The position numbers and the translations under genes are program-made. From contig NZ_CP082161.1 in the NCBI RefSeq assembly GCF_023101665.1, positions 6,696,001 to 6,760,000 of the forward strand: 64,000 nucleotides of DNA, read 5' to 3'. How positions within the stretch are numbered: position 1 is the first letter of the stretch; every line of letters begins with the position of its first letter. Below are positions 32,338 through 34,065 of this stretch, piece by piece. The notes under the pieces were generated by a model. That model was not told the DNA's origin and searched no databases. It saw nothing but the letters and a program-made list of their open reading frames with translations. Source of the DNA: Bradyrhizobium sp. 195 (GTDB taxonomy: Bacteria; Pseudomonadota; Alphaproteobacteria; Rhizobiales; Xanthobacteraceae).

Positions 32338-34065
32338 TTAGAACAATTCTATGCCGTCATCTGCGGTCTCGACCGCCTCGACCCGGCGCGTGGCGACGAT
32401 CGACGCCAGTCCGAGTGTTTGCAGGACGTCGCGATGAACATCCCGTTCACGCTCCATCGTGTAGCGCGCGAAGAGATCGTCGAGTATCGCCTGATCCTGC
32501 ACCTCCACCTGTAGCCGCTGCGCGCCCGCAGTCTCGAGCCGCATCGCGACCGCCGGCAAGGCCGCCGAGCTTTCGCCGAGCGCGGTCATCAGGCCCTGGG
32601 CCGAATTCATCAGCCGCTCGAATTCCGCGCCTTCGTCCACGAGCCGGCTCATCAACTTGCCGAGCCGTTCATTGCCGGCCTCGACCTCGCGCAGCGCCAG
32701 AAGGATCTGCGGCTCGAGCTTGGCGAGCTGGGTGGGATCACCCTGGACGCGAAGCTGCTTCAGCTCGCCGGCCGAGCGCTCGATGCCGTCGAGCACGGGC
32801 CTCAGGCGCCCGGCCCCCGCTGAGACCTGGTCGGCAGTCGCCTTGAGCTCGTTGGCGATGACGACGAAGGCGCTGCCGCGGCTGCCGAGATGGCTTGCCT
32901 TGAGGCCGGCATTCATTCCGATCAGCGTGATATCGACCGTCGCCTCGGCAAGCCCGGCGATTGCCTGGCGAAATTTTGCCAGCGTGTCCTCGACGATCGC
33001 GAGCGCCTCGTCGACCGCGCGGCCCGCACTCTCGCAGGTGCCGATCAGGGTCGACGCGTGCGCCAGCGTCTGCTTGATGCGTGTCAGGAACGACGACGAG
33101 CCGTCCTCCTCGCCGCCAAACAGCGTACGACCGTGGCCGACGACGCTGACTGCATCGTGCAGGATGGCGGTCAGCGCGCCGACGATCTGGCCGACGTCGC
33201 CGCCGAACTCGCGCTGGGCATCCCTTAGCTGTGCCGCCTGCAACTGGCAGATCGCGCGCATGCCGTGATCGCCCGGGACCGGTTCGGGGACGAGGCTTGA
33301 CGCCGATTCCAACGCAAGGTTGAGGCCGTGCGACACGTGTTCGAGGCGCTGCCGCGTGCTGTCGCCTGCCTGCAGCGAGATGATCGCGCTGCCGACCGCC
33401 TCGGCGATCTTCCTGGTGCTGGAACTGGCGCGATCGGCCAGATGGCTGCTCTTGCTGCGCTGATCGCGCAATCCGGAATAGGCCGCGCCGAGTTCGGCGC
33501 TCTCCGACATCAGTTGAGCCCGATAACGGCTCTCGAACTCCTTCTGCCGGCCGGAGGCGGAGGCGACCGCCTCGGACAGGCGCTGCTGGTCCCGGGCGCA
33601 GCCTTCGATCGAGCGCTGCACCGACCTGCCGAGATCATAGGCTTCCTGGGTGAAGGCGAGAAAGCCCTCGCGGTCGCCCTCGAGCGAGGCCGCCTCGATC
33701 CGCGCGCTGCGCGCGATGATGGTGATCATCTGGATGTGCTTGAACAGCGGCTTGAGCAGCGAAGACGCCTCTGCCGTGCTCTTGCCGATCGTCTCCAAGA
33801 GGGCGCTCTCCGCCGGCAGCGTCTGCGCCAGCTCGCTCAGCCGCGCGGCGATCTCCTGCAGCGCCGTTGCAGCGCCCTCGATCTCCGCGCCGGAGAGCTC
33901 GCCCGAGAGCGTCGCGAGACCCTGGTTCAGCTCCTTGAAAATGAGGTGACCGCGTCCGAGTTCGCCACCCACGCGCGCGAAGACGTCCTCGATCCGCGAG
34001 GAGACGTCCTCGATCGCGGCAATTGCTTCAGCGAGCGTGTCGGCCGGAACGGGAGACATGGCCAT
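32338..34065 (-). CDS. Soluble chemoreceptor-like helical protein with two degenerate tip motifs
   Basis: 575 residues from the ATG at 34065, which overlaps the cheB stop (TGATG). It has no membrane segment or signal peptide and is nearly all helical. Two segments resemble the chemoreceptor hairpin tip (LNAAVEAARAGEHGKGFAVV in the MCPs here): IARSARIEAASLEGDREGF (about 115-135) and IGMNAGLKASHLGSRGSAFV (about 375-395). Both are degenerate at key positions. It may bind CheA/CheW weakly, sequester CheW, or serve as a cytoplasmic signalling scaffold. It is the last gene of the chemotaxis operon. Confidence 0.75.
   Translation of the reverse strand: MAMSPVPADTLAEAIAAIEDVSSRIEDVFARVGGELGRGHLIFKELNQGLATLSGELSGAEIEGAATALQEIAARLSELAQTLPAESALLETIGKSTAEASSLLKPLFKHIQMITIIARSARIEAASLEGDREGFLAFTQEAYDLGRSVQRSIEGCARDQQRLSEAVASASGRQKEFESRYRAQLMSESAELGAAYSGLRDQRSKSSHLADRASSSTRKIAEAVGSAIISLQAGDSTRQRLEHVSHGLNLALESASSLVPEPVPGDHGMRAICQLQAAQLRDAQREFGGDVGQIVGALTAILHDAVSVVGHGRTLFGGEEDGSSSFLTRIKQTLAHASTLIGTCESAGRAVDEALAIVEDTLAKFRQAIAGLAEATVDITLIGMNAGLKASHLGSRGSAFVVIANELKATADQVSAGAGRLRPVLDGIERSAGELKQLRVQGDPTQLAKLEPQILLALREVEAGNERLGKLMSRLVDEGAEFERLMNSAQGLMTALGESSAALPAVAMRLETAGAQRLQVEVQDQAILDDLFARYTMERERDVHRDVLQTLGLASIVATRRVEAVETADDGIELF

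Follow-up and report, generated by a model that had tools for sequence, protein, structure and literature searches.

A soluble double-hairpin, receptor-like protein encoded after cheB in Bradyrhizobium as a candidate CheZ-like CheY phosphatase

What does a chemoreceptor-like protein without a sensor domain do at the end of a chemotaxis operon? The question is raised by a gene in a 64,000-nucleotide window of Bradyrhizobium sp. 195 (assembly GCF_023101665.1, contig NZ_CP082161.1, positions 6,696,001 to 6,760,000 of the forward strand), which closes a che operon and encodes a protein of 575 amino acids, hereafter called the target. A sequence-only reading of this stretch had described it as a soluble protein with two degenerate receptor tips that might titrate adaptors or bridge arrays. 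The soluble, double degenerate-tip architecture stood up to analysis; a D-x-T-R-Q motif and an acidic C-terminal tail had been overlooked. We are inclined to regard the target as a CheZ-like phosphatase of phosphorylated CheY (CheY-P) built on a receptor-type bundle, whose two hairpins would form a single-chain pseudo-dimer. The gene and its parts are as follows (MCP, methyl-accepting chemotaxis protein).

32338 to 34065, minus strand: target gene, double-hairpin MCP-like protein of 575 amino acids with D-x-T-x-Q and an acidic C-terminal tail
33280 to 34065, minus strand: N-terminal half, residues 1-262, hairpin 1 with D-x-x-x-Q kept (hhalign, FastTree, AlphaFold2)
33652 to 33714, minus strand: tip-like segment 1, residues 118-138, hairpin turn at 127-131 (profiles, AlphaFold2)
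33337 to 33375, minus strand: motif LQAGDSTRQRLEH, residues 231-243, with the CheZ-type dyad D235...Q239 (invariance, conservation ranking)
32341 to 33279, minus strand: C-terminal half, residues 263-575, made up of hairpin 2, which lacks D-x-x-x-Q, and of the YTM motif and the tail after it
32860 to 32928, minus strand: tip-like segment 2, residues 380-402, turn at 392-393 (Pfam, structures, AlphaFold2)
32434 to 32463, minus strand: YTMxxERxxH motif, residues 535-544, common to part of the single-tip family described below
32341 to 32370, minus strand: disordered acidic tail ETADDGIELF, residues 566-575 (predicted local distance difference test, pLDDT, below 50 from residue 558)

The best-conserved block of the target family is LQxGDxTRQR(L/I)EH (residues 231-243). 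In an alignment of 13 sequences (A1), seven of which have 20-26% identity to the target and were gathered without a motif filter, the invariant positions of this block are Q232, G234, D235, T237, R238, Q239, R240, E242 and H243; further invariants include E26, F29, G33, L36, L275, N385, G394 and residues of YTMxxERxxH. D235, T237, R238, Q239, R240, E242 and H243 are also unvarying across 26 aligned sequences, of which 17 were selected by a motif scan and seven distant ones were not. When conservation was ranked over the 17 non-redundant members of this larger set, 18 of the top 32 residues of the bundle fell 93-118 residues away from the turns, in a belt that surrounds D235/Q239 and for which 6.4 would be expected (the limits of the belt were chosen after the list had been seen). 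They come from three helices: the N-terminal one, the one with the motif, and the first of the C-terminal half; the remainder comprise 11 residues no more than 11 from a turn and three elsewhere. A DxxxQ motif is required in CheZ and likewise in the kinase NarX (PMC3510030, PMC7750401). A methylation site at the motif was considered and dropped, as there is a D rather than an E/Q pair. The C-terminal halves of two relatives (loci L014 and L015) carry remnant-like sequences, FQKGLGQ and FQRDLGE, in which the D is replaced and which lie closer to the tip than the single-tip motif does, by one heptad.

The bundle that carries this motif appears to be of the chemoreceptor type. No sensor domain was assigned to the target by Pfam, and no clear transmembrane segment was found by hydropathy (best 19-residue mean 1.61, compared with 3.27 for an MCP of the operon), in agreement with the sequence-only reading. 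A 19-residue mean above 2.0 was reached by 0/26 double-tip sequences versus 21/40 single-tip relatives, a family that often has an N-terminal transmembrane-like segment; with the cut-off at 1.6 the single-tip count is 25/40 and the target itself lies barely above it. Tip 2 matches the Pfam MCPsignal domain weakly (residues 364-431, E 0.01, 16.1 bits, below the cutoff of 34.6) and chemoreceptor structures weakly as well (best E 0.003). Tip 1 is detectable only with profiles, the N-terminal half aligning with six single-tip relatives at 98.3% in hhalign (reversed controls 0.2-0.4%). The two halves also align with each other (88%; reversed controls 7-10%), and the target thus contains two soluble signalling hairpins in tandem. 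Both tips are altered: tip 2 has K389, at a position where E is found in ordinary receptors, and tip 1 lacks the N and R that are usual there. An AlphaFold2 model (mean pLDDT 83, predicted template modelling score 0.61) places turns at 127-131 and 392-393, so that a helical hairpin is predicted at each tip segment; helices of the N-terminal half span residues 8-57, 60-126 and 132-253. The target therefore shares with ordinary chemoreceptors the helical hairpin with a tip turn, and lacks their canonical tip and an MCPsignal match above cutoff.

Searches with the model itself were of little weight, since their best rows were unrelated long-helix proteins: Foldseek gave no match at E<=0.001 and ranked TTYH and pore-forming toxins highest, and the top VIA rows were likewise unrelated. 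CheZ was not in the best 50 rows of the VIA list for the target or of that for a single-tip model, which excludes nothing. The best NCBIfam row, an SMC protein (E 8.6e-06, 23.8 bits, far below the cutoff of 567), was rejected as a coiled-coil match. The earlier statement that the protein belongs to no named family holds in that no curated family scored above cutoff; it does not hold in that the target is related to a family that we identify below with McpA-like receptors.

This family emerged from searches for relatives. A first protein search returned 661 proteins, and the named ones among the best 120 listed were nearly all from Bradyrhizobium; distant homologues were therefore taken from genome searches. 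Full-length doubles were found in 8/150 genomes of an order-level sample and 3/190 of a class-level sample (the target's own genome counted in both, with the best 7-9 candidates per genome scored, so that misses are possible). The target also matches a single-tip family (alignments A2 and A3) with a nearly canonical tip, D-x-x-x-Q about 115 residues later, and a tail. Among the 120 single-tip matches listed, the D...Q pair lies 114-117 residues past the tip in 116 of the 119 with a readable tip, and the tail ends in LF in 67 and in FF in 41. Only 5/48 other MCP hits have D...Q at this distance, two of them single-tip members; the single-tip set was chosen by profile similarity, so the spacing is partly selected. 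Rhodomicrobium vannielii is among the species with a single-tip protein (P0121). A match was present in 60 of 249 genomes, and out of these we picked 13 single-tip loci. All 13 retain D-x-x-x-Q, while the preceding residue varies among Q, E, G and A; 11 sit among che genes, and no CheZ was called in any of them. In L235 the operon begins with the single-tip gene and encodes the CheA that is closest to that of the window, and one form may thus replace the other. Two short relatives of about 330 amino acids (L227 7688-8692 and L231 9240-10235), in a different che-like cluster, have the tip NARIVAARAG (E to V), the motif FEDMVSQ or FEDMVTQ, and a GDIELF tail.

The N-terminal half of the target is clearly closer to these single-tip hairpins than to ordinary receptors in sequence comparison, scoring 98.7% in hhalign against 40 single-tip regions and 80.6% against 43 ordinary MCP regions. 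The A1 and A3 profiles align over columns 272-555, the C-terminal half, through the YTM motif (99.4%, E 4.9e-22). In a FastTree analysis the N-terminal halves group with the single-tip set (0.987) and the C-terminal halves form a separate clade (0.996); this was a quick tree of short coiled-coil segments (17 N-halves, 17 C-halves, 24/40 single-tip and 20/43 MCP regions) and serves as a lead rather than proof. A plain tandem duplication is a possible origin of the double form; the remnant-like sequences of L014 and L015 would fit it, the tree and the near tie of the C-terminal half between single-tip and ordinary MCP regions (below) less so.

The single-tip family also provides the link to CheZ. 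Its 40 regions aligned with 29 alphaproteobacterial CheZ proteins at 83.5% in hhalign, with D and Q in register, whereas the 43 ordinary MCP regions reached 3.8%. According to the mechanism that we propose, the dyad D235...Q239 of the N-terminal hairpin would make contact with CheY-P and, as in CheZ, hold the attacking water in place; the dyad-less C-terminal hairpin would pack on the first, so that one chain would form a pseudo-dimeric four-helix bundle; and the disordered acidic tail would tether CheY. The target would then erase the chemotaxis signal rather than sense. Catalysis, substrate, the role of the tail and intramolecular packing are what we infer here.

An acidic tail with a terminal F is present in 14/17 non-redundant homologues, and that of the target may bind CheY. 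A D(I/V)(E/D/Q)LF tail like that of the single-tip protein is also found on F7-type CheD (L229 7490-8146, L236 18495-19115, L237 7438-8034, L239 7662-8309 and L077 11178-11792). The shared ending suggests a common binding partner of CheD and the single-tip protein.

The location of the gene is consistent with a role in the same pathway. The open reading frame (ORF) spans 32338-34068 on the minus strand; translation probably begins with the ATG at 34065, the A of which is also the final base of the cheB stop codon (TGATG), an overlap of 1 nt. The target is the final gene of a same-strand run, STAS-cheY-cheA-cheW-mcp-cheW-mcp-cheR-cheB, which bears out its assignment to the che operon. The other genes of the run are these, named by Pfam unless stated otherwise.

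34065 to 35156, minus strand: cheB, 1-nt overlap with the target start
35172 to 36026, minus strand: cheR
36173 to 37972, minus strand: MCP (4HB, HAMP, MCPsignal)
38033 to 38521, minus strand: cheW
38584 to 40281, minus strand: MCP (4HB, HAMP, MCPsignal)
40319 to 40783, minus strand: cheW
40780 to 42855, minus strand: cheA (Hpt, H-kinase_dim, HATPase, CheW)
42852 to 43217, minus strand: cheY, the proposed substrate as CheY-P, named from its translation without a Pfam scan
43217 to 43540, minus strand: STAS-domain protein

Pfam lists neither a CheY-binding P2 domain in the operon CheA (40780-42855, minus strand) nor a cheD among the operon genes. Promoter- and terminator-like sites were no more numerous than shuffled expectation. 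A script was used to read 89 loci, mostly from Bradyrhizobium and not independent. It called the target in 85; in L070, L150, L156 and L159 the ORF-overlap rule probably caused it to be missed. It lies directly after cheB in 72/85 loci and after cheR in a further nine, where over-long ORFs (767-855 amino acids) mask cheB; the remaining four are at a contig end (L137), divergent (L226) or upstream of the operon (L071 and L072). No CheZ was called in the 89 loci with a Bradyrhizobium CheZ as query at E 1e-5, a search that a divergent CheZ could escape.

Two neighbouring genes were also read. Directly past the target, an ORF of 191 amino acids (31741-32316, minus strand) is matched by nothing in Pfam or NCBIfam at E<=1. 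Divergent to the operon, 43715-44995 (plus strand) reads as a receiver plus HD-GYP-like protein; the Agrobacterium neighbour is annotated as an HD domain-containing phosphohydrolase. Such a response regulator-HD-GYP-like gene is nearby in 52/85 loci, and its recurrence hints at a cyclic di-GMP output.

Several observations weigh against a CheZ-like phosphatase. PF04344, the Pfam CheZ family, matched neither the target nor any of nine other relatives (9/9) at E<=1. The direct profile link between the target family and CheZ is weak: in hhalign the N-terminal half reached 14.9% and the motif window 5.5%, in register and not significant, and the C-terminal half reached 4.6%, below its reversed controls (25-28%). 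The 29 CheZ proteins behind the stronger single-tip alignment had themselves been selected by the pattern FQD(L/I)(T/S)(G/A)Q, from 29/30 loci. CheZ has a Q immediately before its D (AXXFQ), whereas the target has G there. Kinship is also less distinct for the C-terminal half, which matched the single-tip regions (99.1%) and ordinary MCP regions (98.6%) in a near tie. CheD carries the same tail in 4/4 loci where it was called, so that the tail is not phosphatase-specific. Finally, the 9.1-Mb genome holds a true CheZ elsewhere (G000:C1:7191053-7191832) that could act in trans; no che genes were called within about 9-10 kb of it. For the single-tip family, a study cited by PMC7184735 places McpA-like receptors in the F6 array, and a part in trichloroethylene taxis is reported for CttP (PMC7534058); both favour a receptor role and count against the phosphatase reading in its simplest form.

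Such a role leads to an alternative that we regard as unlikely for the target, namely that it is no enzyme and acts as a cytoplasmic receptor or as a structural protein, with D-x-T-R-Q only shaping a helix end. The motif does lie near the hairpin base, and in an AlphaFold2 model of a single-tip protein, whose closest Protein Data Bank neighbours are chemoreceptors, the long helix breaks at residue 314, just ahead of the motif; McpA-like proteins are moreover described as receptors (PMC7184735). The dyad is, however, kept across the family while its surroundings vary, which is unusual for a purely structural site, and the target has no Pfam sensor domain. Another alternative is the soluble decoy or bridge of the sequence-only reading, whose altered tips would attach to CheW/CheA or to the tips of receptors and thereby titrate adaptors or connect arrays. 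In its favour, the tips form hairpin turns, surpass most of the stalk in conservation, contributing the 11 top residues near the turns, and are almost canonical in the single-tip relatives. Yet tip residues kept by ordinary receptors are lost or charge-reversed in the target, and the strongest conservation, the D-x-x-x-Q belt about 100 residues away, is left without explanation, which makes this role improbable in our view.

We give about as little credence to the target being an adaptation scaffold, with its tail a degenerate CheR/CheB tether and the protein positioning CheR, CheB or CheD. The gene does directly follow and overlap cheB, its tail resembles the tether pentapeptide with the aromatic replaced and is shared with F7-type CheD, and CheT of Sinorhizobium meliloti, a DXXXQ protein, binds CheR (PMC12654446). 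Receptors of cheD-bearing operons, however, end in xWxEF (DWHEF, DWSEF, DWKEF), whereas target and single-tip tails have no aromatic, for which reason the tail was dropped as a CheR tether. A valine at this position of the tether is reported to prevent binding by each of the four Pseudomonas aeruginosa CheR homologues (PMC7184735, section 11); the target ends in GIELF, with isoleucine at the second tether position, and single-tip tails in GEVELF and GDIELF. The invariant D and Q would again be unexplained.

If the target is a CheZ-like phosphatase, the single-tip family may share its function. By gene order and tail, this family appears to correspond to the McpA-like receptors (PA0180/CttP). 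The order single-tip-cheY-cheA-cheW-receptor(EEDWEEF)-cheR-cheB in the 6-Mb genomes G383 and G380 fits stage 2 of the F7 clusters in PMC7184735, and cheY-cheA-cheW-cheW-receptor-cheR-cheD-cheB-single-tip in L229 and L239 is the stage 1 order. In that 2020 account, which defines chemoreceptors by the Pfam MCPsignal domain, the ancestral stage 1 and 2 clusters have cheY and no cheZ. McpA-like proteins are described there as dispensable for the array and their C-terminus as strikingly conserved, with valine at the second tether-motif place in PA0180; their role is called 'important yet unclear' (section 11). The genomes in question also carry a full F6 system with cheZ. Tentatively, and with less confidence than for the target alone, we suggest that CheY phosphatases of a widespread class go unrecognized among annotated chemoreceptors: McpA-like F7 proteins and soluble doubles with a CheZ-type D-x-x-x-Q 114-116 residues from the tip would terminate signals on the array and be the missing CheZ of cheY-bearing, cheZ-less clusters, and CheZ may be a shortened receptor hairpin. 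This would explain the role of McpA-like receptors and how signals end in cheZ-less che clusters of the F7 type and their relatives. A family at present annotated as receptors would be reassigned to the phosphatases, and the target would be a natural example of a receptor-like dimer in a single chain, only one half of which bears the dyad. In the literature searched, which left subscription papers mostly outside, neither McpA-like nor double-tip proteins were reported to act as phosphatases.

The target can thus be set against four known systems. It shares with McpA-like receptors the slot after cheB of the stage 1 order (PMC7184735), the (I/V)ELF tail end of many of them, D-x-x-x-Q past the tip (known here from the single-tip family) and hairpin profiles that match that family in both halves (98.7% and 99.1%, as above); it differs in having two hairpins with degenerate tips, no clear transmembrane segment, an MCPsignal score of 16.1 bits against the cutoff of 34.6, and no cheD in its operon. 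Compared by description, CheT is likewise a non-CheZ DXXXQ protein of a che cluster, which enhances dephosphorylation of one CheY, whereas its predicted structure resembles CheZ and not receptors (PMC12654446). CheZ (PF04344) likewise has a D-x-x-x-Q dyad in a long helix followed by a linker and an acidic C-terminal peptide, such as SQDDIDALFD in alphaproteobacterial tails; the target differs in lacking the Pfam hit, in having two hairpins per chain, and in the receptor-type tip about 114 residues ahead of the dyad. That the target is CheZ fails on the absent Pfam match and the weak direct profile link, while the proposal that it works like CheZ draws on the dyad and how well it is conserved, together with the tail and the gene slot. 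In overall build it resembles, again by description, natural single-chain MCP-like proteins such as the R. centenum che2 protein, which place two receptor signalling hairpins in one soluble chain.
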